A stretch of DNA of 32,172 bases. Source: a virus. Of this stretch, positions 1 to 16,714 are shown piece by piece (within the stretch, counting starts at the first letter, position 1; the number at the start of each line of letters is the position of its first letter). The stretch spans positions 1-32,172 of the IMG/VR virus record IMGVR_UViG_3300044646_000709. The stretch is one strand, 5' to 3'. Under the pieces are notes generated by a model. The model worked only from the letters and a program-made list of their open reading frames with translations. It was not told where the DNA came from and ran no database searches. The position numbers and the translations under genes were made by a program.

Positions 1-768
1 TACGAGTATTTCCACTTTGAAACCCGGAGGGCCGATTTGAATTACGACCCACAGCAATGCTTTCGGATTTTGATTACGAAGGACTATTGCTTTGATGCGG
101 ATGATTCAAGCCTTGCCAATGAGTCGCTTGATTTCTGCATCACCGAGCCGTACAAGTGGATAACAGACCCCTGCAACACGCTGAGGATTGGTGCCGGTCA
201 GGAAACCTCCGCAAATAAGCAGGCGTGTGCTTTTGGCTTCACCTACCCAACCGTTTCCGAGGACCTGGGCGTTACCGAGTGGTTGCACCTTACGAGGGTC
301 TATGGCGAATTGAGGAACCCACAATACGATGGCGAAACGCTAACCTATCAAGATAGCCGTGGGAGGAAAAGAGTCGTGTATGCGGAGAGCCGTGAGTTTA
401 TGGAGATGGTCGTGAACTTCTCTCCCAAGTGGGTTCACAACTTTATGCGATTGGCTTGCAGGCACGATTTCTTCTATATCAACGATGGCAATTCGGATGC
501 TTATTACTTCACGAGGTCGGAGACTTACTCCCCTACTTGGATTCGCACGAGGCTCGTGGCCCCTGCGATGTTGGAGATAGAGGTTAAGGAGCAAGACCTC
601 CGCAAGGAACTTTGTTGTGTTGGGTTTACGGGTCAAGACTTTGGCGAAGACGAAAGGGAGATTTTGCCATACAATCCTTACGGAACTTATGGTCCTCCTG
701 TTCCAGGCGAGCCTACCGAGCCAAGCGAAGGCGTGTTTGATGAGTCGTTTGATTTTACATTTGAATGA
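1..768 (+). CDS. Virion-associated protein, 5'-truncated at window edge
   Basis: The reading frame is open from base 1, so the true start lies outside the window; the TTG at 37 is only the first possible start inside it. About 255 residues are visible and the stop is TGA at 766-768. The protein is rich in aromatic residues and cysteine (pairs such as CC near the end) and finishes in a Pro/Glu/Phe-rich tail. I do not recognise the family. It sits directly before a strongly punctuated gene that looks like the major tail protein, so a neck or tail role is inferred from position only. Confidence 0.75.
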   Translation, partial: YEYFHFETRRADLNYDPQQCFRILITKDYCFDADDSSLANESLDFCITEPYKWITDPCNTLRIGAGQETSANKQACAFGFTYPTVSEDLGVTEWLHLTRVYGELRNPQYDGETLTYQDSRGRKRVVYAESREFMEMVVNFSPKWVHNFMRLACRHDFFYINDGNSDAYYFTRSETYSPTWIRTRLVAPAMLEIEVKEQDLRKELCCVGFTGQDFGEDEREILPYNPYGTYGPPVPGEPTEPSEGVFDESFDFTFE

Positions 769-777
769 TTATCTTTG
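748..777 (+). promoter_or_regulatory. Bacteroidetes-type promoter for the 848 gene
   Basis: TTTG at 748-751 and TATCTTTG at 770-777 are 18 bases apart, matching the flavobacterial pattern TTG-N17-23-TAnnTTTG. The -7 box lies in the gap after the preceding stop codon and leaves a 5' leader of about 66 bases before the ATG at 848. Confidence 0.75.
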
Positions 778-837
778 CAATTACATCGTGCGTTGTGGCC
801 TGTCTGCCAATAAATGACGAGATTGAAATCCTTTAAT

Positions 838-850
838 TTTTAACAAAATG
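838..850 (+). promoter_or_regulatory. Start leader TTTTAACAAAATG shared with the major capsid gene
   Basis: These 13 bases, which include the ATG at 848, are identical to 9839-9851 at the capsid start. There is no Shine-Dalgarno sequence. A residues occupy -1 to -4 and -6 to -7, the A-rich context known to aid initiation in Flavobacterium. Confidence 0.6.
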
Positions 851-1426
851 GCTTATTTAGAATACGGCTGTACTGCTTTGCCAGACCACGAACTCGTACT
901 TTGTGGGGACTACAAGCGTGGCGGTATCTCTGCGATTGGTATTCTTGAGGAGGACGCATTTGGCCCTGGCACTACTTTTGCAACGGACGCTGACTTCAGC
1001 ACCGCAGCAAAATACACCACCGCTCTCGCTGCTGGAGACCTCAAAATTATCAAGAATGTTCGTGGAACGGTACCCGATGCCTCCCCCGTTGACGTTGACA
1101 ACCCCGTTGGTTGCGGCCCTCAGAGCCTTTTAGCGGGCTTTGACTTTACCGCTACATGGATGGATGCCAACACAACCGATGGAACCATTGCCTTTTATAG
1201 CGCACTCAACAAGCGTGTAACGGGTTTGATTCTGTACCTGTGTGGTTCCAATGAGGTGATGTTCATCACCCAGCCCGTGAATTATGTGTGCCTGCCGGTT
1301 AATGTCCCCGCTTCCAACAAGGAGCTTCAGATGTTCAACTGTACGGCCCGTGCTTCGCTCGGCCCAGACCAATTACCCAAGAAAATCACTGCGCCTTCCA
1401 ACGCAGACGCTATCTTCGGAGCATAG
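848..1426 (+). CDS. Probable major tail protein (highly expressed virion protein)
   Basis: 192 aa with no signal peptide or membrane segment. It has several cysteines and a beta-rich, Gly/Thr/Asn-rich composition typical of tube-forming tail proteins. I do not recognise a specific family. The role is inferred from expression signals: it has its own consensus promoter (770-777), a strong intrinsic terminator right after it (1447-1478), and a start leader TTTTAACAAAATG identical to that of the major capsid gene at 9849. Single-gene transcription of this kind suits an abundant structural protein. An alternative is a decoration or minor capsid protein. Confidence 0.6.
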   Translation: MAYLEYGCTALPDHELVLCGDYKRGGISAIGILEEDAFGPGTTFATDADFSTAAKYTTALAAGDLKIIKNVRGTVPDASPVDVDNPVGCGPQSLLAGFDFTATWMDANTTDGTIAFYSALNKRVTGLILYLCGSNEVMFITQPVNYVCLPVNVPASNKELQMFNCTARASLGPDQLPKKITAPSNADAIFGA

Positions 1427-1446
1427 GTTTCGGTTTGGTTTTTTTG

Positions 1447-1478
1447 AATCCTCGGCCTTTGGTCGGGGATTTTTTTTT
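1447..1478 (+). terminator. Intrinsic terminator after the 848 gene
   Basis: An 11-bp stem pairs 1447-1457 with 1461-1471 (two G-U pairs) around a TTT loop, followed directly by a run of T to 1478. The final T of the tract is the first base of the next promoter box. Confidence 0.85.
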
Positions 1479-1485
1479 ACCTTTG
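1478..1485 (+). promoter_or_regulatory. -7 box TACCTTTG driving the glycosyltransferase cassette
   Basis: A perfect TAnnTTTG lies in the U-tract of the preceding terminator, with TTTG at 1458-1461 in its loop as a possible upstream element at slightly short spacing. Only five bases separate it from the ATG at 1491, so transcription should begin at or next to the start codon. Confidence 0.75.
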
Positions 1486-1490
1486 CACAG

Positions 1491-2438
1491 ATGAGTGAAA
1501 AAACCACAGGGATAGTGATTATGGCTTTTGGAAAGTCAGCTTATCACGAAATGGCCTACAACTTCGCAATATCGGTGAAGGCTTTTGACAGAGACCTCCC
1601 CATTCAGTTGATATGCGACAAAAGGAATATGTTGATTCCCCACAATTATTGGGTCTTTGACATTATCACCATCATTGAGCAAGATGACTTGTATTCGGGC
1701 TATGGTTTTAGCCCAGGCAGAGCCAAGACGAGGATGGACAAGTATATGGCCTTTGACAACAACCTATACTTTGACACGGATGCCGTTGCGCTCAAATCCT
1801 TGCAACCATTGATTGAAAAGCTTCTTGCGCTACCTGAAAGTGGGTATTTCTATTCCCAAGTCGTTTCTTGGGATGATCCAAGAGGAATGACCCCAAAGGC
1901 GAACCTAAAAAGGGATGGAGCTGATTTCCAGGCGATGCAATGGGCTACCCTTGACACCATTTGGGAGTTCCACGAGCTTGACGAAGACGCTGAGGTAACG
2001 GCTATAAATAGCTCCTTTATGTTCCTTCGCAAGGGCGAGAAACTCACGGAGTTCTTTGAGCAAGTAAGGGACAACATTGACAACGGCATCCCCATAGACA
2101 GGCTTAAAATGCCTTGGGGAGGCACTTATCCTGATGAGCTTGCCTTCAACATCGCTTGCGCCCAATACAAGATTGATCCCTTTTGTGGCGAGAATCCCGT
2201 TTACTTCCAATACCGAAATGCTTTATCGCCCAAGATTATTCCTTGGATGATGGAGAACTATTATGTCTTGGGATTATTTGGTGGCCCTGGGTTCTCCCAC
2301 GATTCTGCATGGGAGCATTCTTGCGCCTTGCTTGGAGAGTATCATGCGAGATTCGGATTAACGCACCAATACAAGTGGCACAGCCTTGTAAGGCAAAAGC
2401 ACGCAGGAAAACAAAATGTGATGATAAGATGGAAATAA
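1491..2438 (+). CDS. GT-A fold glycosyltransferase, GT8-like
   Basis: 315 aa. The N-terminus opens with the strand GIVIMAFG, as expected for a nucleotide-sugar binding fold, and D95-T96-D97 is a DxD metal/sugar-nucleotide motif in the context YFDTDAVAL. The longer open frame upstream runs back through the terminator and is not real, so ATG 1491 is the start. This is the first gene of a cassette of five sugar-modifying genes and a methyltransferase and overlaps the next by 10 bases. Likely role: adding a sugar to a virion or host-surface glycan. Donor and acceptor cannot be told from the sequence. Confidence 0.75.
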   Translation: MSEKTTGIVIMAFGKSAYHEMAYNFAISVKAFDRDLPIQLICDKRNMLIPHNYWVFDIITIIEQDDLYSGYGFSPGRAKTRMDKYMAFDNNLYFDTDAVALKSLQPLIEKLLALPESGYFYSQVVSWDDPRGMTPKANLKRDGADFQAMQWATLDTIWEFHELDEDAEVTAINSSFMFLRKGEKLTEFFEQVRDNIDNGIPIDRLKMPWGGTYPDELAFNIACAQYKIDPFCGENPVYFQYRNALSPKIIPWMMENYYVLGLFGGPGFSHDSAWEHSCALLGEYHARFGLTHQYKWHSLVRQKHAGKQNVMIRWK

Positions 2439-3100
2439 GCGGATTTATCTCGGTGATTACGACATGCAAGGGCAGGCTTCATCATTTAAGACAGACATTG
2501 CCTGGATGGATGGCTCAAGAAGGCGGTAATTATGAGATTATAGTAGTTGACTATAATGACCCAAACGATTGCTTTTCCTATGTTGAATCCCTTTGCGACC
2601 CAATGGTTAGAGCGGTAAGGGCCAACAATGATGACCCCTTTTTCAATTTGAGCAAAGCCCGGAACATAGGGGCCATGGCTATATCCGAAAAAACGGACGT
2701 GATTTTGTTCGTGGATGCCGATACCATTATGACCAACAATGTCTTCATAAATTATCATAAAGGCAAAGTGCTGAATCCGGGCAATTTTCTTTGCGGATGG
2801 GCTAATGGCAACATGAATCTTGGGGCAGGGGCTTCTGGCAGTTGTATGGTTTGGATGGATGACTTTTTCGCTGTGCGTGGGTATAATGAGCTGGCAAATG
2901 GGTGGGGATATGAAGATGTTGAGTTTTACGAAAGACTTGAGCGGATAGGCAGGCAACAAACAGCATTTCACAACGGCCTTGACTCTATTCAACACAGCGA
3001 TGAAGAAAGGGTAATGTTTTATCGCAAAAAAAACATCCATGTGACCAGCAACGGCAATCTTTTGACAATGAAGAACAACTTTCAAAGCTCTATCGCATGA
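2429..3100 (+). CDS. GT2 glycosyltransferase with GT7C-like C-terminus
   Basis: 223 aa. The N-terminus has the GT2 pattern (FISVITTCKGR, then YEIIVVDY), with the DxD motif D96-A97-D98 in LFVDADT. At 158-163 the stretch GWGYED, followed by VEFYERL, matches the C-terminal galactosyltransferase motif (GWG-E-D) of Glyco_transf_7C proteins such as chondroitin polymerases and polypeptide GalNAc transferases. The upstream extension to 2183 lies inside the previous gene and is rejected; ATG 2429 gives a normal N-terminus. It overlaps both neighbours, which suggests translational coupling. Confidence 0.8.
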   Translation: MEISGFISVITTCKGRLHHLRQTLPGWMAQEGGNYEIIVVDYNDPNDCFSYVESLCDPMVRAVRANNDDPFFNLSKARNIGAMAISEKTDVILFVDADTIMTNNVFINYHKGKVLNPGNFLCGWANGNMNLGAGASGSCMVWMDDFFAVRGYNELANGWGYEDVEFYERLERIGRQQTAFHNGLDSIQHSDEERVMFYRKKNIHVTSNGNLLTMKNNFQSSIA

Positions 3101-3654
3101 TTCAGGTCATTAAGGCCAATGAGCATGGCGATTCAAATGTCTTTGAGGTATGCGGGATTTATGTCTATCATTCGCCATACATAGGTATAACTCGTGGCTA
3201 TGGCGAGTTTATGGACCATTACAAGCCAGAGCCTTCTGCTGAATGGGTTGTGTATCAGCCTCACGATGTGGCCCTTAACTATTTTGATTTAAGGCGTGCC
3301 ATAGATAATTCTCCCGGAAAGTTCTTTCAATTAAGCCTTTCGGATGATTCTTACGGCTCACACGAATTTCTTTTTAAGCGCAAACGGCAGGGATGGCATC
3401 GGGTTCCTTTCGTTGAGATTATGGTTCCTGTATTCAAGAGGGACTTTTATGATGTCGTGGCCCCCTATATGAAGGAGTCCAAGTCGGGATGGGGGCTTGA
3501 TTATCTATGGGCGCATTTGTATGGCGAACAGCCTTGGCTTTGTTGCGATTACGAAATGAGGCACAAAAACCCAATAACTTCGCACAAGTGGCGAATTGAC
3601 GGAAAAACACCTATGGATGAAGCGGAATACATAACCAGAAAATACTTGCGATAA
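3097..3654 (+). CDS. DUF707-like protein, putative glycosyltransferase
   Basis: 185 aa. FVEIMVPVF at 105-113 and GWGLD at 131-135 match the hallmark segments of the DUF707 family (FVEIMAPVFSR and GWGLD), which occurs in plant and bacterial proteins thought to act on glycans. The phage copy is shorter than typical family members of about 300 aa. It overlaps the previous gene by 4 bases and the next by 1. The family match rests on motif recall; the biochemical activity is unproven even for the family. Confidence 0.6.
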   Translation: MIQVIKANEHGDSNVFEVCGIYVYHSPYIGITRGYGEFMDHYKPEPSAEWVVYQPHDVALNYFDLRRAIDNSPGKFFQLSLSDDSYGSHEFLFKRKRQGWHRVPFVEIMVPVFKRDFYDVVAPYMKESKSGWGLDYLWAHLYGEQPWLCCDYEMRHKNPITSHKWRIDGKTPMDEAEYITRKYLR

Positions 3655-4220
3655 TGAGCGTTAAGAAAGGCATAACCTTTGTGATTCCATCCATAAACAA
3701 GCCCACAATTCATCGGGCGATTGATTCTTTGATACGACAAGGCAATCCTAATTGGGAATGCGTTATTGTGTATGATGGCGTTGATGGCCCTTCTTTTAAC
3801 GATGAAAGGGTTAGGTGCCTAAAGGTTGATAAAATAGGCACAAGGGACGATGTTCACGGAATGGCTGGCCTTGTTCGCAATTTTGGCATAAAGGCCGTTG
3901 ATACGGAATGGGTTGGGTTTCTTGATGACGATGATAGCCTGGACGAGTCTTATGTTGATGTCTTGCTTAACAAGTACGAAGGGCATGATGCCGTTGTTTT
4001 TAGAATGAGATACATTGACGGATCGGTTATACCAAGGATGGAAGATTCTCGCATGTATTTCTCAAATGTCGGAATATCCTTTTGCTACAAAAGAAAGGAC
4101 TTCCCGATTTTGTTTGACAGCAATAGGAATGGCGAGGACTTTGATATGGTAAACAGACTTCAATCCTTGTGTGAGCGATTTATAGTTGCTGAAGAGATAT
4201 TATACAGGGTTAACCATTAA
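3654..4220 (+). CDS. GT2 family glycosyltransferase, short
   Basis: 188 aa. It starts with the GT2 strand ITFVIPSINKPT, continues with WECVIVYDG, and has the acidic nucleotide-sugar motif L90-DDDDS-95. It is shorter than most GT2 enzymes (about 250-320 aa), so it is close to a minimal GT-A domain. The ATG overlaps the TAA of the upstream gene by one base (TAATG), so its translation is probably coupled. Substrate unknown. Confidence 0.8.
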   Translation: MSVKKGITFVIPSINKPTIHRAIDSLIRQGNPNWECVIVYDGVDGPSFNDERVRCLKVDKIGTRDDVHGMAGLVRNFGIKAVDTEWVGFLDDDDSLDESYVDVLLNKYEGHDAVVFRMRYIDGSVIPRMEDSRMYFSNVGISFCYKRKDFPILFDSNRNGEDFDMVNRLQSLCERFIVAEEILYRVNH

Positions 4221-4232
4221 ACAAATCGTAAA

Positions 4233-5093
4233 GTGAGCATTAAGGTAAAGGCAATTTGTAATTGGACGGATTCAGCGTCCTTGTCTAAAATAATCATTCA
4301 GCAATCTCTTTATAGCGAATCTGACGGCATTGAGTTTGTTAACGATGACTCATACGAATGGCTTTTTATTTTCAACAACAAAGTTGGTGAGGAGATTCTC
4401 GTGCCGAAAGAGAGAGTCATAGGCTTCATCCAAGAACCGCCCATTTCATCGTTTTTTGACAAAGAGATTGGCAAATACTGCTCCGTTGTTTACACCTGCA
4501 CGGAGCCTCACGCCTACAACATAGACGGCAATATCGTTGGTTTCCCTTGCGGGATGCTTTATCAGATGGAGGGCAATTTGACCGATTATCTGGACGGTCT
4601 TGATAAGCAAAATAAGCGAAGAGTGATAAGTATGGTGACGAGCAATTTCTCCCACGGCTTTTACTCGTTTAGGCACAATATGGCAAAGGCACTTGCGACT
4701 TGTGGATGGGTTGATGTTTATGGAAGGGATTTGGATGTGCCTGGATGCAAGGGGGGACTTGGCAACAAGGCCGATGGCTTGATTCCTTACAAGCTCTCGG
4801 TGTGTATGGAGAACAGCATTTGGGATGATTACATATCCGACAAGATTATTGACGCTGTTCTATGTAGAACCATCCCTATTTATGTGGGTGCGAGAAATAT
4901 CCACGAACATATCCCTTTCGCCATTCGCCTTGAATCTTATCGCAACGCATCCTTCGCAAAGGCTGAGATTGAACACATCGTATCTTCGGTGAATTACGAC
5001 TCCCTTCTGCCCCAAATGAACGCTTGGGTTCGTAAATATGCGAATGAATACACGATTTACTCAAAGATTAAACAAACCATCATAAATAGTTAG
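4233..5093 (+). CDS. GT10-like fucosyltransferase
   Basis: 286 aa from a GTG start at 4233. The C-terminal half carries the alpha-1,3-fucosyltransferase signature: K-L-S-V-C-M-E-N-S at 187-195, then DYISDKIIDA and PIYVGARNI. This corresponds to the GT10 pattern YKF-ENS-DY-TEK-A-PIYWGA. The N-terminal half (QEPP, YTCTEP, GFPCG) fits the acceptor domain. The expected activity is transfer of fucose or a similar sugar from a GDP donor onto a glycan. The family is commonest in eukaryotes and Helicobacter/Bacteroides and is unusual in a phage. Confidence 0.75.
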   Translation: MSIKVKAICNWTDSASLSKIIIQQSLYSESDGIEFVNDDSYEWLFIFNNKVGEEILVPKERVIGFIQEPPISSFFDKEIGKYCSVVYTCTEPHAYNIDGNIVGFPCGMLYQMEGNLTDYLDGLDKQNKRRVISMVTSNFSHGFYSFRHNMAKALATCGWVDVYGRDLDVPGCKGGLGNKADGLIPYKLSVCMENSIWDDYISDKIIDAVLCRTIPIYVGARNIHEHIPFAIRLESYRNASFAKAEIEHIVSSVNYDSLLPQMNAWVRKYANEYTIYSKIKQTIINS

Positions 5094-5095
5094 CA

Positions 5096-5737
5096 ATGTA
5101 TCACTCACAAGTAGGGCAGGACGAGTTCGTTGACAATTTTCTTGGCGGAAAGCGCAATGGCCGCTATTTGGACATAGGAAGCCACAATGGGGTTGACCTT
5201 TCAAATAGCTATTTCTTTGAGGTTCAAAGAGGTTGGACGGGCGTTTTGATTGAGCCTATGGAGGAGGAATACGCTAAATTGGTGGCCAATCGCAGCGATA
5301 AGAATGACTTCTTCAATGTGGCGGTTTCCAATTACTTTGGCACGGCTCAATTCACCAAGATATTGGGGGGATATCACGGCTTGAATATGATTTCGGGTCT
5401 AAAGCAAAGCTTACACGAAAAGCATCTTGACAGGATTCACAGGGAGGCCAATGAGTCAAATGCCCAAGTCGTAGATGTCACCGTGTCTGTTAGGACGGTC
5501 CAGGACATATTGGACGAATGCGAACTCTATCAATTTGACTTTTGCTCCCTTGACACGGAGGGTTCAGAGTACGAGGTCCTTCAAGGCATTGATTTCAGCA
5601 AGACCGAAATAAGCATTTTCTTGATAGAAAATAACGGCTATGAGTCAAGGGGGAAGATTGAGTCTTTCCTGAGCGAGAAAGGGTATCGCTTCCACAAAAG
5701 CCTTGGGCATGACGATGTTTACACCTTGATTCATTAA
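5096..5737 (+). CDS. FkbM-family SAM-dependent methyltransferase
   Basis: 213 aa. It begins with SQVGQDEF, followed by the SAM-binding motif Y24-LDIGSHNG-32 and then GVLIEP, with DFCSLDTEGSEYEVLQG further on. All are typical of FkbM methyltransferases, many of which O-methylate sugars. It is the last gene of the sugar cassette, 2 bases after the fucosyltransferase stop, so it probably caps or alters the glycan made by the upstream enzymes. It is followed by an inverted repeat and a new promoter. Confidence 0.85.
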   Translation: MYHSQVGQDEFVDNFLGGKRNGRYLDIGSHNGVDLSNSYFFEVQRGWTGVLIEPMEEEYAKLVANRSDKNDFFNVAVSNYFGTAQFTKILGGYHGLNMISGLKQSLHEKHLDRIHREANESNAQVVDVTVSVRTVQDILDECELYQFDFCSLDTEGSEYEVLQGIDFSKTEISIFLIENNGYESRGKIESFLSEKGYRFHKSLGHDDVYTLIH

Positions 5738-5775
5738 TTCGGTGGCGTTTATTGGCATTCGCAAATCCCGAATTA
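5735..5775 (+). terminator. Inverted repeat after the glycosylation cassette, possible terminator
   Basis: Perfect 8-bp arms TAATTCGG (5735-5742) and CCGAATTA (5768-5775) flank a 25-base loop in the gap before the portal gene. No good U-tract follows, so it may be a weak terminator or an operator. Confidence 0.4.
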
Positions 5776-5780
5776 TACCT

Positions 5781-5788
5781 TAATTTTG
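5781..5788 (+). promoter_or_regulatory. -7 box TAATTTTG for the head operon
   Basis: A perfect TAnnTTTG lies in the 104-base gap before the portal gene, just after the inverted repeat. A clear upstream TTG at ideal spacing is not seen (the nearest is 5752-5754, 26 bases away). Confidence 0.6.
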
Positions 5789-5806
5789 AGGACAAAACCA
5801 TTCCCA

Positions 5807-5839
5807 ATGTGCAAGTGCAGAGGCGGTAAAAAGCGATAG
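5807..5839 (+). CDS. Possible 10-aa leader peptide MCKCRGGKKR
   Basis: An ATG lies 18 bases after the promoter box, the same spacing seen for the starts at 13020 and about that at 16547. It opens an 11-codon frame that stops two bases before the portal ATG. The peptide is basic with a CxC motif. It could be a leader peptide coupling translation into the portal gene, or a chance frame. Confidence 0.3.
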   Translation: MCKCRGGKKR

Positions 5840-5841
5840 CC

Positions 5842-7725
5842 ATGACAACAGAGGAAATTCTCCCCCTGTTAGACAAAATCATAACGGAGTACAAGAAGTA
5901 CGAGGTTAAGAAAAAGTCTGACAAGTTTTACATCCCCGATTTCTACCCGACCTATCAGTCTTGCGTGGAGATGGAGATGAGGCTTCGGATCCACTCCGAT
6001 TACGATGCCTTCCCCGAAAAGTTGTTCCGGGAGAAAGCCCCCAACGAACTCCCTCACGAGTTCAATTATCGGAAGAACATCTACAAGCCCATCACGGTAC
6101 CTTATTTCCATAAGGCCGTAAACATCGCTGGGCGAGTGTGGAACCGGCAGAATTACGAGGTTCGCTTTGAGGACGCTTCCCAGGAAAGGTATTTCAACGA
6201 GGACTATCCTCGCTTTGGTTCGTTGGAGAACTATTTCCAGCAGATTGTGAGCTTTATGACCTTGACCGACCCCAATGCGGTCTTGGCCATTATGCCTACC
6301 GACCTTCAATACTTTGAGGACGGCACCTTCAACGATACTATTGAAACCACGCCTGTGGCCCATTGCTTTCACTCCAAGCGAGTGTGGGGATGGAAGGAGG
6401 GCGAGTATGCCTTCCTAAAGGCCGATTACGGCTCCGAGGTTGAGCATGGCCGTACCAAGACGGATGATGGGTTGGTCTTCTACATCTTTGACAAGAACGA
6501 GATTCAGATAGCCAAGCAAATCGGTAAGAAGGGCGATTACGAGTTTGAGATTGGCCTTTACTATCGCCACAACTTAGGCTATTTGCCTTGCACAAGACTC
6601 GGAGGCATTTCGGTGCAGGAACACGGCGATTACTATTTCCAATCCTTCTATACCCCTGCCATCCCTGCTTTGGACCAAGCCGTGTGCGACTTCAGCACCT
6701 TGCAGATGTCCAAGTTCAGCCACGCTTTCTTGCAGAAGTGGGAATATGTGGATGAGTGCGATAAGTGCAACGGCTCTGGGCAGATTGAGGAGGCGTTAGG
6801 CTTTGAGGAGAAGGTGGCCATCGCTTGTTCTAATTGCGGAGGCTCTGGCACCAAGCGGATGTTCGGGCCGATGTCGGTGTATCAGGTGCAGACCCCGAAC
6901 CGCTTCACGACCGAGGTTGAGACCAAGGTGAACATTCCTCCTGCCGGGTTCATTGAGTTGGATCCGCAAATCCTTGACTTCCTAAACAAGCAAGTCATTA
7001 CCAATATCCAAATGGCCTTTGAATTGTTGTCCATTGATGTAATGAACAACGAGAAGATTTCGGGCCGTGAGACTGCCACCGGTAAGGCTATTGACCGTGA
7101 GGAACTGTATTCCTTCCTACTCCGCTTTGCCAACACCATCTTTGCCGACTATGAGTTCGCTATGGACACGATTGGCAGGATGCGTTATGGGGATGCCTGG
7201 AAGATGCCTGCGGTTCGCTATCCGCAGAACTTTGAGATGCGTACCGATGCGGAGTTGACCGCAGAGATTAAGTTGGCCCCGACCTTTTCCAAGGCGATGT
7301 TGGCCCAGCAATACCTTGACACTCGCTTCCCCATCCAGGAGGAGAAAAGTGCGATAATGAAGTTGAGCGTCCAGGTTGACCCCTTCTTCAATCTTGAAAC
7401 GAGGGATGTCTTGGCGTTGGTTGCTTCGGGCATTGCCCCCAAGTGGAAGGCGATAATGCACTTTGAGTTGGAGTCCTTGATTAAGGAGGCTTTGTCGGAG
7501 AACGAGGAGTTCTTGACGCTGACCTTGGCCGAGCAGAAGGCGGTGTTGATAGAGATGGCCAAGAAGTTGGTGCCAGAGGATGAGGGTTCGTCCAGGATGA
7601 CTCCCCAAAGCGTTATGAACGCACGGACGGCTGTTCCTGCCGCACCAATAGAGGAAGAAGGCGAGGAGGAAGAGGAGGAGGAGGAAGAGGAAGAGGAGGA
7701 AGAGGAGGAGGAGGAAGAATCGTAA
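5842..7725 (+). CDS. Portal protein
   Basis: 627 aa, the size and position expected for a portal, directly before a MuF-like head protein, scaffold and capsid. The C-terminal part (SGRETATGKAIDREELYSFL, then NTIFADYEF) resembles the long-helix region of phage portals. Two CxxCxGxG motifs lie at C306-G313 and C329-G336, like half of a DnaJ zinc domain, which is unusual for a portal. The last ~25 residues are almost only glutamate, coded by GAG/GAA repeats. Predicted role: dodecameric ring at the head vertex for DNA entry and exit. The family call rests mostly on context and length. Confidence 0.75.
   Translation: MTTEEILPLLDKIITEYKKYEVKKKSDKFYIPDFYPTYQSCVEMEMRLRIHSDYDAFPEKLFREKAPNELPHEFNYRKNIYKPITVPYFHKAVNIAGRVWNRQNYEVRFEDASQERYFNEDYPRFGSLENYFQQIVSFMTLTDPNAVLAIMPTDLQYFEDGTFNDTIETTPVAHCFHSKRVWGWKEGEYAFLKADYGSEVEHGRTKTDDGLVFYIFDKNEIQIAKQIGKKGDYEFEIGLYYRHNLGYLPCTRLGGISVQEHGDYYFQSFYTPAIPALDQAVCDFSTLQMSKFSHAFLQKWEYVDECDKCNGSGQIEEALGFEEKVAIACSNCGGSGTKRMFGPMSVYQVQTPNRFTTEVETKVNIPPAGFIELDPQILDFLNKQVITNIQMAFELLSIDVMNNEKISGRETATGKAIDREELYSFLLRFANTIFADYEFAMDTIGRMRYGDAWKMPAVRYPQNFEMRTDAELTAEIKLAPTFSKAMLAQQYLDTRFPIQEEKSAIMKLSVQVDPFFNLETRDVLALVASGIAPKWKAIMHFELESLIKEALSENEEFLTLTLAEQKAVLIEMAKKLVPEDEGSSRMTPQSVMNARTAVPAAPIEEEGEEEEEEEEEEEEEEEEEEES
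7659..7719 (+). repeat. Low-complexity GAG/GAA tract coding poly-Glu
   Basis: An almost purely purine run of GAG and GAA codons at the 3' end of the portal gene gives an acidic tail. Mixed GAG/GAA codon use argues for selection on the protein, though the tract could vary in length by slippage. Confidence 0.85.
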
Positions 7726-7726
7726 T

Positions 7727-8533
7727 ATGACTTTAGGGCAAATTCAGTCCAAGAAGCAGAAGAACTTGGACACGATTGGCGAGGAGTTTGGCAAGCAGGT
7801 GGAGGAATCGCAGAACGAGATTCTGCCTCTTATCATTGCCCTGCTCGCTTTATTCAGTTACGACAAGAACGGCAATATATCTTTTGACACGGCCAATTAC
7901 GCTCGTGTCAATGCCTTTATGGATGGAGTGGATGGGGCCGTTGCCGGGAGCAAGTATTTTGATGCCTTGGTCTTCTTGATGGACAAGGTGGATGCCCAGG
8001 CCGAACTTACCAGAGAGATGTACCGCAAGATGGGCCTTGACCCTGATGCGGTTTCCGGCATTGATTACGAGGCCCAAGCAACCTCTATGCTTGAGGACTT
8101 GACGAACTTTAAGTCGGGCTTTTCAACGGCCTTGAGGAACTTTATCCTTGCGTCTATTGCCTCTGGCTCTGACCGAACCGCTTTGGAGGAGGGCATTGCC
8201 CAAATCGTGAAAGGGGGTGCTGGAAAAAAGGGGTTGCTCTTTGACACGGCCACGCTTACGGCTGACACGATGTTTGCGGTCATTGACCGCTCCTTCACCT
8301 TTGCGATGGGCGAGGCTTTGGGCATTAAGAAATACTTGTACGCAGGAGGCTTAATAAACGATTCTCGGCCATTTTGTGTGGCGAGGGATGGTAAGGTATT
8401 CACGAAGGAAGAAGTGCGCTCCTGGGGCAAATTAGGGGATTGGAAGGGCAAGATTGTCGGCACCGATGAATCCACCATTTTTATCTACTTGGGAGGCTAT
8501 CGTTGCAGGCATTGGCTTGTCCCTCAAGTTTAG
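7727..8533 (+). CDS. MuF-like minor head protein
   Basis: 268 aa. The C-terminus has the classic Mu F / SPP1 gp7 pattern: GG-I-DSRPFC (D212 to C217) with R-GK-F following, and GGYRCRHWLVP at the very end (about 256-266). The N-terminal two thirds are helical. It begins one base after the portal stop, the standard place for this family. Known relatives bind the portal and are packaged in small numbers in the head. No toxin or nuclease domain is fused at the C-terminus. Confidence 0.85.
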   Translation: MTLGQIQSKKQKNLDTIGEEFGKQVEESQNEILPLIIALLALFSYDKNGNISFDTANYARVNAFMDGVDGAVAGSKYFDALVFLMDKVDAQAELTREMYRKMGLDPDAVSGIDYEAQATSMLEDLTNFKSGFSTALRNFILASIASGSDRTALEEGIAQIVKGGAGKKGLLFDTATLTADTMFAVIDRSFTFAMGEALGIKKYLYAGGLINDSRPFCVARDGKVFTKEEVRSWGKLGDWKGKIVGTDESTIFIYLGGYRCRHWLVPQV

Positions 8534-8549
8534 TTTGCCCATTATTGTT

Positions 8550-8557
8550 TATATTTG
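8550..8557 (+). promoter_or_regulatory. -7 box TATATTTG for the scaffold/capsid genes
   Basis: A perfect TAnnTTTG lies in the 57-base gap after the MuF-like gene. A 33-base G-free leader (AAACCTAAAACCTAAACC type) connects it to the ATG at 8591. Confidence 0.7.
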
Positions 8558-8590
8558 CGGTACAAACCTAAAACCTAAACCTTTAACCTT

Positions 8591-8956
8591 ATGAACGAAA
8601 GAATTACAGGACGATGCGTCCCTGTTCTCCGTGCGGATGGAGAGCAGATTCTCGTGACCATTGCGGTTGCGCAGAACACCGAGTTTCTCAAAAAGTACGG
8701 TATGCGTATTCTTGACGAAACGATGCTCCACGCCAAGCCCGAAACCTTCTCGGCTTCTATCCCGGAATTGCCTAAGCGCAGACCGATGTTGGTGGCCCAA
8801 GAGCCTGTGGCCGTTGTTTCAACGCAGGAGTTTATGGACCAAACCCCCGAAGTCCCTGCCGATGAAGAGGTGTTTGAGCAAGAGGTAGCGACCGAAGAGG
8901 AGCAGGCCGAGATTCCAACCGAAGAAACCACAACCACTAAAACCCGTAGAAAATGA
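8591..8956 (+). CDS. Small acidic head-assembly protein (hypothetical)
   Basis: 121 aa. A short ordered N-terminus (about residues 1-60) precedes a Pro/Glu-rich, probably disordered acidic tail that ends in a basic TKTRRK. I do not recognise the family. Its stop overlaps the scaffold start (ATGA at 8953-8956), and the position between minor head protein and scaffold suggests a role in procapsid assembly. A head-to-tail or decoration function cannot be excluded. Confidence 0.65.
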   Translation: MNERITGRCVPVLRADGEQILVTIAVAQNTEFLKKYGMRILDETMLHAKPETFSASIPELPKRRPMLVAQEPVAVVSTQEFMDQTPEVPADEEVFEQEVATEEEQAEIPTEETTTTKTRRK

Positions 8957-9768
8957 GCATAGACTCCAAAGAGATGGCCAAATGGCTGTTTGACCAAGAG
9001 AAGGATTTTGAAAGCCTTGACCAATTCAAGGAGGAACTCGCCAAGAAATATGTCGCTCGTGAGGTGGCCGTTGATGACGAGGACATTCGCAACAAGGTAA
9101 CGGGCAAGACGCTCGGAAGCCTTGAGACCAAGTTCAAGCGTGCCTTTAACCTCACCGAGGACGATGTGAAGGGGAAGAAGTTGTCGGATTTGTTTGAGGT
9201 TGCCCAGCAGCGCATTCAAGCTCAAGTGGATGAGCTGAAAACTCAAGCCCAAAACAGCGGTAAGGACGATGAGGCTTACAAGGCTCAACTCGCTGAATTG
9301 AAAAGGCAGAAGGGCGAGTACGAAACCTTGGCCGGGGAGTTGACGCAGAAGTTGGAGCAGAAGGAGGTGGAGTCGCAGAAGGCCATTGAGAATTACATTG
9401 TGAACCAAGAGGTTATGAAGATTAAGGCCAATGTGCCTTGGAGCGATTCGGTCAATTCCCTTGCGAAGAAGGGCTTTGACATAGAATTGAATGAAAAGTA
9501 TATCTTTGCATTGTCGGATGGGAAGTTGACGGTGACGGATAAGCAAGGCAACCAAATCAAGAATGATAAGGGGACTGCGTATCTTTCGCCCGAAGAGTTG
9601 GTAAGGAGTGAGGCCGAGAAGGCTCAAATGCTCAAGAAAGCAGGAGATGCCGGTAAGCAAGACACGCCTCCAGTTCGGACTTCTTCTTCCAGCAAGGAAG
9701 GTACTCGTGGTGAGCGTTTTCTTCACCCAAGGGCCATAAAGCATAGAGAAGAACTGAACGCACGATGA
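8953..9768 (+). CDS. Capsid scaffolding protein
   Basis: 271 aa, very rich in Lys and Glu, with a long predicted coiled coil at roughly 85-160 (repeated LAELKRQKGEYETL-type heptads) and a basic, Ser-rich C-terminal end. This composition and the position immediately before the capsid gene are typical of phage scaffolds, which guide capsid assembly inside the procapsid and then leave. No protease motif is visible. A 406-aa open frame on the opposite strand here is a shadow of the codon bias. Confidence 0.75.
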   Translation: MSIDSKEMAKWLFDQEKDFESLDQFKEELAKKYVAREVAVDDEDIRNKVTGKTLGSLETKFKRAFNLTEDDVKGKKLSDLFEVAQQRIQAQVDELKTQAQNSGKDDEAYKAQLAELKRQKGEYETLAGELTQKLEQKEVESQKAIENYIVNQEVMKIKANVPWSDSVNSLAKKGFDIELNEKYIFALSDGKLTVTDKQGNQIKNDKGTAYLSPEELVRSEAEKAQMLKKAGDAGKQDTPPVRTSSSSKEGTRGERFLHPRAIKHREELNAR

Positions 9769-9838
9769 TGTGTCAAGAGGGACAATAAGCCTCATGGTGC
9801 CTGGCTTGGCAAGAAATAGCCGACAAATCTTTATTTCA

Positions 9839-9851
9839 TTTTAACAAAATG
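9839..9851 (+). promoter_or_regulatory. Start leader TTTTAACAAAATG of the capsid gene
   Basis: Identical over 13 bases to the leader at 838-850. The 80-base gap upstream (9769-9848) has no TAnnTTTG box, so the capsid gene is probably transcribed from the 8550 promoter and boosted at translation. Confidence 0.55.
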
Positions 9852-10910
9852 TCATACGCTTTTAATTCCTTCGTATCGTGTCCGAACATTCAGGAGCGGT
9901 TGGATGCAGGCTATTTCAATGCCGACCCAACGATGTTCCCCGGACACATCAATACCCTTCGTGCGGTCACAAGCCCCATGAACGAATCGGGTATTCTCCA
10001 AAACCAAATTGACACCAAGAACGGCCACTATCGCCAAGTTGAGGTTGTCTATCAGCCAAGGATGACTGATAGCACCACTTCAAGCTCTGCGACTTTGAAC
10101 TGTGCTGCTGGTCCTGAATTTGGTGAAACCTCACGGGTTTACAACATTGACCCCAACACCGGTGCATCTCGCCGTTGGTCTATCGGCCTGGACGATTTGG
10201 CTCCTCGTTGTGAAAATGACGAGTCCTACATCGCTCGCCAGTTGGCCATGCATATGCAGGCTATCAAGCGGTACATGAACCAAGAGGCCGTTACCTTCAT
10301 TGGGACGAACAATGGTTCGTTTGCTGCCAATCCTGGTAGCACCGTTCCTTCGGGCAATCTGTTGATTACTCGGACCAAGGCTCAAAACGTATCTTACGTT
10401 TATGCCGATGACTTCATGTCCGATGTGATTTATCAGTATCAGTTGGCCGAGGCTTGGGACCGCCCCATCATCATCGGTGGTGAGCTTGTCCAGAAGTACA
10501 TGACCGCATTGAAATCTCATTGCTGTGCAACGGTGAACGTTGACCTTCAGCAAATGATGAACTCCGATGCTCAGTCGTATTTCTTCTTTGAGCCTCGCAT
10601 TGGTGCTGCCCAGGGCAACGCTAACGGCTTCGCATTCCTCGCCCCAGGCGGTGTGCAGATGATCCGTTACAACGCCTTCCGTGGTGCTGACGGCATCCGT
10701 GTAATTGATGACCAATCCATCAAGAAGGGTACGATTTCCGACCCCGAAACCGGCTTGGAATTTGATTACTATGCTCAGCTGGATTGTAACCAATGGAAGT
10801 TCTTCATGGGTCTTTCCTACAAGTTCGTGACGCTTCCTTCTGATGTGTTCTTCTTGAACGATCAGCTCCGTGGCGTGAATTACATCTTTGAAGGTACTGT
10901 GAACAACTAA
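9849..10910 (+). CDS. Major capsid protein
   Basis: 353 aa, beginning MSYAFNSFVSCPNIQERLDAG. It directly follows the scaffold and is followed by a strong terminator, the usual arrangement for the most abundant virion protein. The alternation of helical (ENDESYIARQLAMHMQAIKRYMN) and beta-rich segments suits an HK97-like fold, but I cannot confirm the fold from motifs. There is no cleavage-site signal. Codon use is biased and regular, as for a highly expressed gene. Confidence 0.8.
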   Translation: MSYAFNSFVSCPNIQERLDAGYFNADPTMFPGHINTLRAVTSPMNESGILQNQIDTKNGHYRQVEVVYQPRMTDSTTSSSATLNCAAGPEFGETSRVYNIDPNTGASRRWSIGLDDLAPRCENDESYIARQLAMHMQAIKRYMNQEAVTFIGTNNGSFAANPGSTVPSGNLLITRTKAQNVSYVYADDFMSDVIYQYQLAEAWDRPIIIGGELVQKYMTALKSHCCATVNVDLQQMMNSDAQSYFFFEPRIGAAQGNANGFAFLAPGGVQMIRYNAFRGADGIRVIDDQSIKKGTISDPETGLEFDYYAQLDCNQWKFFMGLSYKFVTLPSDVFFLNDQLRGVNYIFEGTVNN

Positions 10911-10933
10911 TCCTTCGGGTTGTATGCGACAAG

Positions 10934-10966
10934 AAGGGGGTGCGAAAGCATCCCCTTTTTTGTTTT
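10934..10966 (+). terminator. Intrinsic terminator after the capsid gene
   Basis: A 10-bp stem pairs 10934-10943 with 10948-10957 (one G-U pair) and is closed by a GAAA tetraloop (C-GAAA-G, 10943-10948). The downstream arm runs into a T-rich tract that ends inside the next promoter box. Confidence 0.9.
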
Positions 10967-10973
10967 ACCTTTG
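10966..10973 (+). promoter_or_regulatory. -7 box TACCTTTG, leaderless start
   Basis: A perfect box four bases before the ATG at 10978. With initiation about five bases after the final G, the predicted first transcribed base is the A of the start codon. It is fused to the capsid terminator in the same way as at 1447-1491. Confidence 0.75.
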
Positions 10974-10977
10974 TCTT

Positions 10978-11985
10978 ATGAGTAATTGTTGGGATAATTT
11001 AATCGGCATTCGTGGGCTTTGTCCTGCGGATGCACCGCCCATTAGTGGCCTTTATATCAACGACCTAACGGGCATAAGCCTCCGTGACCTTGACGCTGGC
11101 GTGAACGAGGAGGACAAGACCGCCTATACGCTTATTGAGCGCAAGATTGACCAAGCGGCCAATATGCTGAAAGCGGAGTCTTTGGCTTATTTGCAGAGCC
11201 GTTGGAATTACACGACCTCTGCCTTCAATGGGGACTTAGGCTTCTATGGAGAGTCCGTTGAGGCGTTGCCTGCTGCTTCGGTCTGGAGGGGCATAGGAAT
11301 GCGTTATCGCCAGGTTGATTACATCTCCGTCACCATTTCTTCTATCAGCCTGTTGCTCCCAAGTTCGGGCGTTGTGCCGGTGAGGGTTGTTGATTTGCGA
11401 ACGGGAGCGACCTTGGACACCTTTAATATCACCTCGGTAGCCAATGCGGTTACGAGGGTAGTGATCAACAAGACCTATCAATCCAACGGTCAGATGTTGA
11501 ACCTGGCCGTCCTTTACAATGCGACCTCGGTGGCTTCCTTCCAAACGGGCTTGTACCCGACCTATGGATGCGGTGGATGTGGCAGGAATTATCGTTGGAC
11601 GGAGAATATGTTGGAGAGAGCTATTGAGATACCAACGAGTGCGCCTTTGCTTGACTTGAACATAAGCGGAGGAGCCTTCACGGGAGGCTTGAGCGTTCAG
11701 TATCAGGTCGCTTGCAGCTTTGATTCGCTCTTGTGCGCTCATGTTACGCAACTCGGCTATCCTTTGCTTTACAAGGCTGGGATGTTGCTATTGAAGGAGA
11801 TGGAGTTCTCCAAGCGTTTGAATGGCGTGATTGTCTTTAACCGGGACATGAACCAAGAGTTGTCCAACTATTACCAAGCCCAATACGACCAATATATGCA
11901 ACGATACTTTGAGCAGGCGAACTTGCCAGAGGACGGTTGTTTTTCGTGCAGGCAGAGGGTTAGACAAGCTTCTCGCATACCTTAA
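10978..11985 (+). CDS. Virion protein, probable neck/head-tail region
   Basis: 335 aa from ATG 10978; the open frame back to 10924 runs through the terminator and is not used. The N-terminus (CWDNLIGIRGLC, then SGLYINDLTGISL) resembles a conserved but uncharacterised protein I associate with Bacteroidetes phages and prophages. A Cys-rich patch GCGGCGRNY lies in the middle and CFSC near the end. It follows the capsid gene, where adaptor or neck genes usually lie. Function is inferred from position only. Confidence 0.65.
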   Translation: MSNCWDNLIGIRGLCPADAPPISGLYINDLTGISLRDLDAGVNEEDKTAYTLIERKIDQAANMLKAESLAYLQSRWNYTTSAFNGDLGFYGESVEALPAASVWRGIGMRYRQVDYISVTISSISLLLPSSGVVPVRVVDLRTGATLDTFNITSVANAVTRVVINKTYQSNGQMLNLAVLYNATSVASFQTGLYPTYGCGGCGRNYRWTENMLERAIEIPTSAPLLDLNISGGAFTGGLSVQYQVACSFDSLLCAHVTQLGYPLLYKAGMLLLKEMEFSKRLNGVIVFNRDMNQELSNYYQAQYDQYMQRYFEQANLPEDGCFSCRQRVRQASRIP

Positions 11986-11989
11986 AGAG

Positions 11990-12439
11990 GTGGATATTAA
12001 GGATTACATACAAAAACTTGAAACGCAGAAGTCTTCCTTGGCAAGGCACTTGGCTTCATCGCTTAACGAGGCGGCTCCGCAAACGCAAGAGCAAGAGGTT
12101 TTGCCGAGGATTTTTGAGAAGGGTCTGAAGCCCGATTTGGCCAAGATTGGGAGCTATAAGAGCGACAAGTACAAGGCGGTCCGAAGGAAGGCGGGGCTTC
12201 AAGTAGCCTTTATTGACATGAAGTTCACGGGCGATTTGAAATCCGAGTTCAGCACTCCCAAGAAGAACTTGATTGGCTCCAAGCCCAAGGTTGAGTTTAT
12301 GGTTGTGAGCGAGTTGAACACCAAGAAAGTTGTTGACAATGAAGCCCGTAGAGGCACTATCTTTGGGTTGGCGAGCAAGGAAAAGGCTTATTTCGTTGAC
12401 CTACTGACCAAGTTATTCTTTAGCAAAGTATTCAAATGA
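11990..12439 (+). CDS. Hypothetical head-tail connection protein
   Basis: About 149 aa if it starts at GTG 11990, four bases after the previous stop; the frame is open back to a TTG at 11909 inside the upstream gene, which is less likely. No ATG is available at the 5' end, so the start is uncertain. The protein is Lys-rich and mostly helical. I do not recognise it. Its place between a neck-type gene and the 12436 gene, with a 4-base overlap to the latter, suggests head-tail joining. Confidence 0.6.
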   Translation: MDIKDYIQKLETQKSSLARHLASSLNEAAPQTQEQEVLPRIFEKGLKPDLAKIGSYKSDKYKAVRRKAGLQVAFIDMKFTGDLKSEFSTPKKNLIGSKPKVEFMVVSELNTKKVVDNEARRGTIFGLASKEKAYFVDLLTKLFFSKVFK

Positions 12440-12996
12440 TAGCGACCCAGGTTATTGACGAGATATTCACTCGCTTGAATGCTTACAAGTTGGTGAGGCA
12501 CACGGGCTTTGCTGAGTTATTACCCGATAGGGACGGCAAGGTTATCCCTGCTATCTATTGCAACAATGGCGATTACAAGCACGTTGTGGACGATTACGAT
12601 TGGAGCGAGGGCATTGCCTACATCCGTTACAATGGAAAGGAGCGTGCAGAGGTTACGGACGAGAACAACTTTATTGGGTGCCAGGACTTGCTCCGCATCG
12701 TTTATCCGTTGACCTTGGTGATTATCGGCAAGCGTAAGGGCAAGCGTCCTTACGAGGTCGCATCGCTCGTTCAGAGCAAGATTAGCGGTATGTACGAGGC
12801 TTTGGCCACGACTGTCGGTGCGGTGAGCATTGATGTCACTTCCATTACGGCCAATTACTCCATCAAGGAGAACCTTGACACCGAGTTTGAGGGGGCGAAG
12901 GTTGTATGGGACACGGCCTTGTATATGATTGCCTTGGATTTGGAGGTGGAGGTGATTGGTGATGCGTCTTGCCTAAACACCGAAGAACCTTGTTAA
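12436..12996 (+). CDS. Hypothetical tail-completion protein
   Basis: 186 aa, starting in a 4-base overlap with the gene before. The mix of an N-terminal helix (QVIDEIFTRLNAYK), several beta strands and a C-terminal strand-rich part, together with its size and position, would suit a tail terminator or head-tail joining protein. There is no motif I can name. It ends just before a new promoter, which marks the end of this small operon. Confidence 0.65.
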   Translation: MIATQVIDEIFTRLNAYKLVRHTGFAELLPDRDGKVIPAIYCNNGDYKHVVDDYDWSEGIAYIRYNGKERAEVTDENNFIGCQDLLRIVYPLTLVIIGKRKGKRPYEVASLVQSKISGMYEALATTVGAVSIDVTSITANYSIKENLDTEFEGAKVVWDTALYMIALDLEVEVIGDASCLNTEEPC

Positions 12997-13001
12997 ATTT
13001 G
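12994..13001 (+). promoter_or_regulatory. -7 box TAAATTTG for the appendage genes
   Basis: A perfect TAnnTTTG overlaps the stop codon of the 12436 gene. TTG at 12969-12971 is 22 bases upstream, within the known spacing. The G-poor leader TGTCTTAAACCTTAAACC follows to the ATG at 13020. Confidence 0.75.
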
Positions 13002-13019
13002 TGTCTTAAACCTTAAACC

Positions 13020-13574
13020 ATGCCAATAGAAACAAGGGCCAGCCTGGATGCTTCTTCCAATGTTGTTCGTACTGAATCAACTATCGGAGCGAATACCGCA
13101 AAGCGTATTGGCGATTTATTTGTTGCCTTATCGGATTCTGCCGTCTTGCTTGCCGAGCGAGGCTATGTGAGTGCTTCTTCAAAGAACCCTGTTACTTTCA
13201 CTCCTGCCGCTGCTGACACTCCCGAAAAGTTGACCTATACAATGGCCTTGGTTCTTGAGGGGGCATACAACACGGCCTTTGAGTCAAGCCCCTCCGTGAG
13301 TTGGAATGGCGATGCGGCTATTGCTTATCGTGTGAGTGCTATGGTTAACTTTGATGGCCCAAACAGCAAGGAATACTATTTCTACATCGCAAAGGATGGC
13401 GTTATTGACGAAACAACAAAAGTGTCCGTCCATTTGAGTTCACCTAACCCTCACTCCATCTCTTTGGAGTTGTTTTCCCAAGGGGCGCATACTTACGAGA
13501 TTTACATTGAGGAGAAAGGTGGCACAGACCCCATTGACATCATTAACGCCCAACTGAACTTAATGTCGCTTTAA
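13020..13574 (+). CDS. Virion appendage protein (hypothetical)
   Basis: 184 aa. The N-terminal 45 residues are helical (NTAKRIGDLFVALSDSAVLL), followed by a beta-rich domain with alternating hydrophobic strands, a layout common for trimeric fibre-linked proteins. I cannot assign a family. It is the first gene under the 12994 promoter, overlaps the next by one base, and lies three genes upstream of the holin, so a tail-tip or baseplate role is likely. Confidence 0.6.
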   Translation: MPIETRASLDASSNVVRTESTIGANTAKRIGDLFVALSDSAVLLAERGYVSASSKNPVTFTPAAADTPEKLTYTMALVLEGAYNTAFESSPSVSWNGDAAIAYRVSAMVNFDGPNSKEYYFYIAKDGVIDETTKVSVHLSSPNPHSISLELFSQGAHTYEIYIEEKGGTDPIDIINAQLNLMSL

Positions 13575-14089: not shown

Positions 14090-14090
14090 A

Positions 14091-15323: not shown

Positions 15324-15342
15324 AAACTCGCCCATTCATCCA

Positions 15343-15350
15343 TAAATTTG
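15343..15350 (+). promoter_or_regulatory. -7 box TAAATTTG before the 15358 gene
   Basis: A perfect TAnnTTTG in a 34-base gap, seven bases before the ATG at 15358. The predicted leader is about three bases, so almost leaderless. No upstream TTG at ideal spacing. Confidence 0.6.
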
Positions 15351-15357
15351 ACGCACT

Positions 15358-16518: not shown

Positions 16519-16519
16519 T

Positions 16520-16527
16520 TATATTTG
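16520..16527 (+). promoter_or_regulatory. -7 box TATATTTG after the endolysin gene
   Basis: A perfect TAnnTTTG two bases after the endolysin stop, 19 bases before the ATG of the 53-aa gene at 16547. Confidence 0.65.
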
Positions 16528-16546
16528 AACCATAAAACGATTCATT

Positions 16547-16708: not shown

Positions 16709-16714
16709 TTTTGA

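Follow-up and report, generated by a model that had tools for sequence, protein, structure and literature searches.

Phage protein glycosylation is already known. In mycobacteriophages Che8, Corndog and Myrna, glycosyltransferases encoded by the phages modify capsid and tail-tube proteins (Freeman et al. 2023, as reported in PMC11600133, PMC12363180 and PMC12619734), and these reports describe, in cluster O, three tandem glycosyltransferase genes downstream of an O-methyltransferase gene. Here we analyze a six-gene glycan cassette of an uncultured phage, IMG/VR record IMGVR_UViG_3300044646_000709, whose entire 32,172 bases form the window of this study. The cassette lies between a tail-tube-like gene and the portal gene, and its genes are called G1 to G6. 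Judging from gene content and gene order, we think it probable that this is a virion-glycosylation locus, in which G1 would attach the first sugar, most likely to the tail-tube protein, and in which a conserved core would be finished with exchangeable caps. As in the mycobacteriophages, phage-encoded glycosyltransferases would do the work (they occur in 45 of 45 complete intervals). Unlike the mycobacteriophage sets, the present one keeps a fixed place behind the tail-tube gene, includes a GT10 enzyme and has exchangeable outer genes; the portal protein of its lineage finds only weak matches among named phages.

The chlorovirus PBCV-1 offers a second parallel. According to PMC7826918, it has a conserved, virus-encoded core glycan that contains fucose, with one domain of fucosyltransferase type and one of galactosyltransferase type, the latter modelled on structures 1LL2, 5GVV and 6U4B; the outer sugars of chlorovirus glycans differ between viruses and include a methylated capping sugar. 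All three of those structures are among the structural matches of G1; the likeness is one of design and of GT8-type fold. No homology is claimed. The chlorovirus infects an alga, its capsid glycan is N-linked and its enzyme has three domains. In the fibril glycans of the Megavirinae, a viral aminotransferase and acetyltransferase serve amino sugars, and a methyltransferase candidate and clade-specific sugars are also reported (PMC10117803). Similar genes occur here, namely a DegT-like family (F13, in relatives L008, L015 and L021) and a NeuD/PglD-like family (F23, in L015), but the Megavirinae are giant viruses with large gene sets, whereas the complete phage cassettes hold 3 to 8 genes. Prophage O-antigen conversion (gtr) cassettes likewise consist of phage glycosyltransferases, with antigenic variation as an outcome. 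In contrast to these, no membrane flippase or lipid-linked transferase is found among the families scanned here, and the genes stand amid virion genes. In the open-licence literature, as far as titles and the beginnings of abstracts go, we found no description of a glycosyltransferase cassette that varies and follows the tail-tube gene of a phage. New features are a GT8-like enzyme tied to the tail-tube gene, a core with GT10 and the extent of the exchange, and the lineage that shows them has no close named relative in the collection searched.

A search with the portal protein gave 78 viral loci. Together with the window, 64 of these have at least 200 nucleotides (nt) ahead of the portal gene and 45, that is 44 relatives and the window, also include the end of the tail-tube gene. 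Many of these loci are closely related and not independent, and the counts are uncollapsed; the family names are based on one scanned representative each. A glycan cassette occupies all 45 complete intervals, in 13 arrangements built from 25 protein families. In every interval the first cassette gene belongs to the G1 family; the G2 family is present in 39, the GT10 family of G5 in 42, and a methyltransferase-type gene in 44 (in three of these only F16, which scores below the cut-off). Among the 44 relatives, the distance from tail-tube gene to portal gene ranges from 2,486 to 5,494 nt, while six other intervals of the head module vary by no more than 250 nt. Thirteen of the 25 families score above a Pfam cut-off, and every one of these is of a glycosyltransferase, methyltransferase, sugar-aminotransferase or acyltransferase kind; the G1 family, beyond these 13, is counted as glycan-type by its fold. 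The first-pass annotation of the window had considered a fucosylated, methylated capsid or tail glycan unusual for a phage. The gene set is not peculiar to one phage; it is a fixed though variable feature of the lineage, and since the arrangement recurs in relatives and the genes show ratios of nonsynonymous to synonymous substitution (dN/dS) that are clearly lower than 1 in the pairs analyzed, it goes beyond chance.

Which neighbor is the cassette tied to? A scan seeded with the tail-tube protein, and not with any cassette enzyme, returned 61 loci. In 59 the G1 family is directly next, with a gap below 400 nt, and the remaining two loci end at the tail-tube gene. A second, portal-seeded scan, from which the best 80 of 93 relatives were taken, extended to a more remote clade, in which the portals share about 25% identity with those of the window clade. 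In 16 of its 21 loci the G1 family comes next after the tail-tube gene, by the same gap limit; four others show no tail-tube gene, having little DNA ahead of the portal, and in L221 G1 lies further downstream. Some of these distant loci match by construction, because the scan profiles included sequences from L141, L197, L198 and L200. Two loci separate the tail-tube gene from the portal gene as possible anchors. In L200, G1 sits behind the tail-tube gene with nothing between it and the portal, and the other glycan genes stand just upstream of the tail-tube gene: a hexapeptide acyltransferase-like open reading frame (ORF; a second one was recognized by eye), a GT2 gene, an FkbM gene and two ORFs that match no Pfam family. 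In L221, where the tail tube and G1 were named by profile and most other genes by eye, the tail-tube-like gene is followed by glycan genes, G1, scaffold- and capsid-like ORFs and, later, the portal. Because G1 of L200 and the cassette of L221 stay with the tail-tube gene, the fixed neighbor of the cassette is that gene rather than the portal gene.

In 10 of the 17 distant loci with a visible G1, it is part of an ORF of 737–744 amino acids (aa), whose other parts match weakly to hypothetical proteins of large phages; the L222 form (L222 4995–7220) matched no Pfam family. This long ORF of L222 and its relatives recalls the three-domain glycosyltransferase of chloroviruses.

The protein encoded directly upstream of the cassette was modelled by AlphaFold from 14 sequences, with a predicted local distance difference test score (pLDDT) of 65.9. 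In Foldseek, the structures that match it best are phage tail tubes and the tube, cap or baseplate proteins of contractile systems (best E 1.9e-4; five matches at E ≤ 0.001). In VIA comparisons it reached Z 9.6 against a phage tail core protein and Z 9.2 against gpV of phage lambda, and the listed VIA matches comprise proteins of the tail-tube, neck, baseplate-tube and Hcp kinds, these targets having been preselected by Foldseek. A tail-tube-like fold is therefore probable, with the modest Z values of a low-confidence model.

As to the enzymes, the model of G1 has a pLDDT of 88.8. By VIA it aligns with glycogenin, a GT8-fold enzyme, at Z 17.9 (root-mean-square deviation 3.7, 220 residues) and with LgtC at Z 15.8, and Foldseek matched it to glycogenin, GlyE, LARGE1, UGGT and LgtC (best E 3.0e-8). 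The stretch Y93-x-D95-x-D97, which contains the metal-binding DxD motif (D95-x-D97), is invariant in 15 of 15 family members. By sequence, the window's protein matched no Pfam family and nothing in the PDB, and the 15 members of its family gave no GT8 match in Pfam, only four other families with a best E of 0.026. Because the GT8 sequence profile does not recognize it, G1 stands, on the strength of its modelled fold, as a GT8-like enzyme and is not filed as a GT8 member. G2 scores above the cut-off with three Pfam families (PF10111 Glyco_tranf_2_2, 41.3 bits; PF02709 Glyco_transf_7C, 35.2 bits; PF00535 Glycos_transf_2, 34.7 bits), and its motifs D96-A-D98 and G158-W-G160 are invariant in nine of nine sequences. 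G4 is recognized by PF00535 Glycos_transf_2 (57.5 bits) and by a PHROG glycosyltransferase profile (41.5 bits), and G6 by PF05050 FkbM (72.8 bits, cut-off 22.7) and NCBIfam TIGR01444 (55 bits, cut-off 37.7).

G5 matches PF00852 Glyco_transf_10 at 35.0 bits against a cut-off of 23.9, and this family is above cut-off in eight of ten phage records. Its family profile also matches solved alpha-1,3-fucosyltransferases, best of all 2nzw (E 1.9e-9), in an alignment that covers EN....Y...KIIDA...IPIY.G. Homology to GT10 enzymes thus suggests the use of fucose. The GDP-mannose dehydratase family was found in none of the ten phage records (the control was positive in 14 of 14), and therefore any GDP-fucose donor would be host-derived. 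The first-pass annotation, working from the letters of the window, had named all six products and placed them in one operon between a major tail-type gene and the portal. The placement is borne out: the six ORFs run from 1491 to 5737 on the plus strand, overlapping or at most 12 nt apart, between the tail-tube-like fold and a PHROG portal match. Five of the six labels hold as well, that of G1 by fold and those of G2, G4, G5 and G6 by Pfam. The label DUF707 for G3 had to be given up, as PF05212 reaches 13.5 bits against a cut-off of 24.1; four of seven family members match it, at a best E of 0.042, and the only PDB match of G3 by sequence is weak (E 0.15).

Comparisons of synonymous divergence (dS) show how the cassettes change. 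Between L025 and the window, dS is 0.87 in the portal gene and 0.53 in the tail-tube gene, and 0.05–0.27 in the cassette; the cassette has therefore moved as one block. L018 displays the opposite pattern: its portal (dS 0.12), tail-tube (0.05) and G6 (0.18) genes are close to those of the window, whereas G5 stands at 0.91 and G2 is saturated, and therefore the interior of the cassette has been replaced between conserved ends. L008, with a portal 99% identical to that of the window, has nothing matching G4, G5 or G6. Cassettes move, then, between lineages. At the same time, the cassette genes tested are under purifying selection, with dN/dS of 0.06–0.36 in pairs with computable dS (seven relatives were compared).

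The cassette appears to be equipped with transcription signals of its own. A terminator-like site lies between the tail-tube gene and G1 in 22 of 24 distinct intergenic sequences, that of the window included. Behind it, TANNTTTG begins 11–13 nt ahead of the G1 ATG in 17 of 17 distinct upstream sequences (mean 0.24 and maximum 3 in shuffles). By the consensus given in PMC9723704 and PMC6847099, the motif is the −7 box used by the housekeeping sigma factor of Bacteroidota; with the usual −7 spacing the RNA of G1 would start at or beside the ATG, which the same papers present as uncommon in flavobacteria. The box is of the same kind as those ahead of other plus-strand virion genes. In G002, a close relative, the portal gene is preceded at 61 nt by the same box as the window's TAATTTTG, and 11 of 24 plus-strand boxes lie 8–120 nt ahead of a called start, with the tail-tube, G1 and portal genes among the genes so preceded, compared with 2 of 15 on the minus strand. 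Total counts are near chance, both for TANNTTTGC genome-wide (5 against 4.72 expected) and for the boxes of G002 by strand (24 and 15 against 16.4), and a full −33/−7 pattern with a single fixed spacing was found nowhere in the genome. For these reasons, the evidence for a promoter is the fixed position before G1.

Taken together, these data fit best with cytoplasmic glycosylation of a virion protein by soluble enzymes that act stepwise; the scanned representatives of the cassette families include no recognizable flippase and no polymerase or enzyme for a lipid carrier. We propose that G1 would put the first sugar on a virion protein in the cytoplasm, and that its acceptor would most likely be the tail-tube protein, the product of the preceding gene. 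Extension and branching of the core would fall to G2 and G5, of GT2/7C and GT10 type, using host sugar nucleotides as donors and probably including a fucose-like sugar; a host origin of the donors is probable because the ten records hold no GDP-mannose dehydratase-type gene. The exchangeable genes, here G3, G4 and G6, would add outer sugars and an O-methyl cap. The glycan could serve in shielding, adsorption or particle stability. Recombination would swap either the entire cassette or the outer genes only, and therefore closely related phages would show different glycans, in the manner of serotypes. The first-pass annotation had also read the set as building and methyl-capping a glycan on the phage's own particle. 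This reading is the best supported one, by way of the tail-tube linkage (59 of 61 loci), the arrangements of L200 and L221, the likeness of the G1 box to those of other virion genes and the failure to find a flippase or lipid-carrier enzyme in the scanned families, except for the part assigned to DUF707. The argument offered for it, that the cassette lies in the late strand, is weak by itself, because the cassette has its own promoter-like box behind a terminator-like hairpin.

Several observations weigh against the proposal. The glycan is predicted from genes; the tail-tube model is of low confidence; and in L221 a gene other than G1 directly follows the tail tube. Five families (F10, F15, F18, F22 and F24) have no Pfam match and six (F5, F8, F14, F16, F19 and F25) stay below threshold. 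Three intervals, those of L008, L015 and L021, lack GT10. Each of these has a DegT-type aminotransferase of 208 aa (F13), accompanied by a hexapeptide acyltransferase in L008 and L021 and by the NeuD/PglD-type acetyltransferase F23 in L015. Nor was co-evolution of the tail tube and G1 found beyond background: among 26 close relatives, rho was 0.39 for tail tube and G1 and 0.64 for G1 and portal, so that these distances do not show acceptor and enzyme to have co-evolved specifically. Finally, two pattern scans, with G1 and with the portal, over 84,980 species represented by a single genome each found no host; such scans would miss distant prophages.

The short DegT-type aminotransferase of L008 (4748–5374) aligns with full-length enzymes only over its first part.

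The alternative that survives best holds that another virion protein is glycosylated, be it the major capsid protein, the tail tip or a LamG-like tail protein, and that adjacency to the tail-tube gene is an accident of gene order. The mycobacteriophage enzymes are reported to modify the capsid as well as the tail tube, and the distances of G1 track those of the portal better than those of the tail tube in close relatives. We nevertheless hold this unlikely, as the cassette of L221 is still beside the tail-tube gene despite its reordered head genes (named partly by eye), and G1 of L200 stays there while the other glycan genes have their place upstream.

It is less likely still that the cassette remodels a surface glycan of the host during infection, for superinfection exclusion or serotype conversion. 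Phage glycosyltransferases are known to alter host serotypes in lysogeny, and the promoter-like box of the cassette leaves its late expression unproven. Variable glycosyltransferase sets also resemble O-antigen loci. Such a role is disfavored, because none of the scanned families was recognized as a flippase, a polymerase or an enzyme for a lipid carrier, because the cassette lies between virion genes in all 45 complete intervals, and because the two pattern scans found no relative in the species genomes, within the limit given above for distant prophages. No cassette product is clearly a membrane protein by hydropathy, with maxima per family of 0.58–1.78 (highest in GT10; 1.70 in a hexapeptide acyltransferase). 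This test is weak, because the holin used as a control scored 1.79, about like the highest cassette protein, and another control 2.45.

A passive hotspot, in which cargo genes of no fixed function come and go, would agree with the high gene turnover and strong length variation of the interval, but the G1 family in 45 of 45 intervals, the glycan- or methyl-transfer kinds of all 13 Pfam-supported families and the purifying selection in the tested pairs make this very improbable. Least probable of all is a modification of phage DNA bases: virus glycosyltransferases that modify DNA are known, yet the thymidylate-synthase family is found in none of ten phage records (one with end repeats, others possibly incomplete; control positive in 9 of 14 genomes), the window has N6/N4- and C5-type DNA methyltransferases instead, and GT10, FkbM and sugar-aminotransferase genes suit protein or polysaccharide glycans better. 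A search for Tet/JBP oxygenases gave 0 of 10 records, with the control silent as well.

If the virion-glycosylation reading is correct, glycan coating would be a fixed and fast-diversifying trait of an uncultured phage lineage, represented by dozens of metagenome contigs and one apparently complete genome of about 44 kilobases (kb), and would extend beyond giant viruses and a handful of mycobacteriophages. The reasons for which a bacterial virus varies its coat would become testable, with adsorption, decoys, grazers and particle stability as candidates. The compact set of short, apparently soluble glycosyltransferases might also provide tools for protein glycosylation. It is tempting to go further and propose a true particle serotype locus in phages, probably of Bacteroidota, with a GT8-like starter dedicated to the tail-tube protein, a conserved GT2/7C and GT10 core, and outer sugars, amino sugars and methyl caps that are swapped by recombination between fixed flanks; to this extended form we give even chances. 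Were it true, the surface antigen of a phage would change without a change in any virion protein, and the locus would be a small-genome bacterial counterpart of the chlorovirus glycans.

Comparison with named phages places the lineage only loosely. A DNA search with window positions 1–12000 gave no match among them, and neither did the major capsid and tail-tube proteins. The portal found six weakly matching records (four Polaribacter phages, one Pseudanabaena and one faecal), and the promoter-like boxes together with the weak Polaribacter matches suggest a host among the Bacteroidota. The stretch 1–17184 of Polaribacter phage P12002L has no annotated glycosyltransferase. GT10 matched eight records, of cyanophages and marine viruses, G1 and its distant L200 relative matched one uncultured large phage only, and the helicase gave generic matches only.

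The features of the locus are listed in Table 1. The plus strand of the window carries virion genes and the minus strand replication and DNA-methylation genes. G+C content is 41–46% across the cassette and 44–53% in most other 1-kb windows, with a second low stretch of 40% near 25.5–27 kb. G002 comprises 44,466 bases and looks complete, because a 99-nt direct repeat is present at both its ends. The window is about 12 kb shorter, and in the missing part G001 and G002 hold, as recognized by eye, terminase-, tape-measure- and further tail-like ORFs.

Table 1. Position and assignment of features at the cassette locus of the window
Feature	Position	Strand	Basis
Tail-tube-like protein, 192 aa, proposed acceptor	848..1426	+	fold of low-confidence model
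Terminator-like hairpin AATCCTCG-loop-CGGGGATT and T-run, between tail-tube gene and cassette	1447..1478	+	
Promoter-like box TACCTTTG of the Bacteroidota −7 type; its end lies 5 nt ahead of the G1 ATG	1478..1485	+	
G1 (family F2), GT8-like glycosyltransferase of GT-A type that opens the cassette, proposed initiating enzyme	1491..2438	+	fold
G2 (F3), GT2/GT7C-type glycosyltransferase	2429..3100	+	Pfam
G3 (F8), cassette protein without supported family	3097..3654	+	
G4 (F9), short GT2 glycosyltransferase	3654..4220	+	Pfam, PHROG
G5 (F1), GT10 fucosyltransferase-like enzyme, GTG start	4233..5093	+	Pfam, PDB sequence match
G6 (F7), FkbM-family methyltransferase, proposed capping O-methylation	5096..5737	+	Pfam, NCBIfam
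TAATTTTG, promoter-like box ahead of portal	5781..5788	+	read from portal upstream sequences
Portal protein, right border of the locus	5842..7725	+	PHROG 7376 portal, 57.8 bits

Some minor observations concern other parts of the window. The DNA methyltransferases on the early strand, of C5 and N6/N4 type, lie at 22642–24000 and 19276–19998, and the C5 methyltransferase gene has no match among the compared ORFs of G001. The tail protein at 14091–15323 (PHROG 5939) is strongly divergent, with 58% identity in G001 and 37–38% in two ORFs of G002; it is possibly a receptor-binding protein. Residues 304–338 of the portal (window 6751–6855) form a CxxCxGxG zinc-ribbon-like stretch, which scores 22 bits with DnaJ_CXXCXGXG, under the cut-off, and its four cysteines are invariant in six portals, distant ones included. 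Directly ahead of the portal gene, at 5807–5839, there is a micro-ORF, MCKCRGGKKR. An MCKC-starting micro-ORF, of 10–13 aa among relatives, is present in all 64 loci checked, which are not independent, and synonymous changes occur in it; it may possibly encode a tiny conserved protein or a leader peptide.

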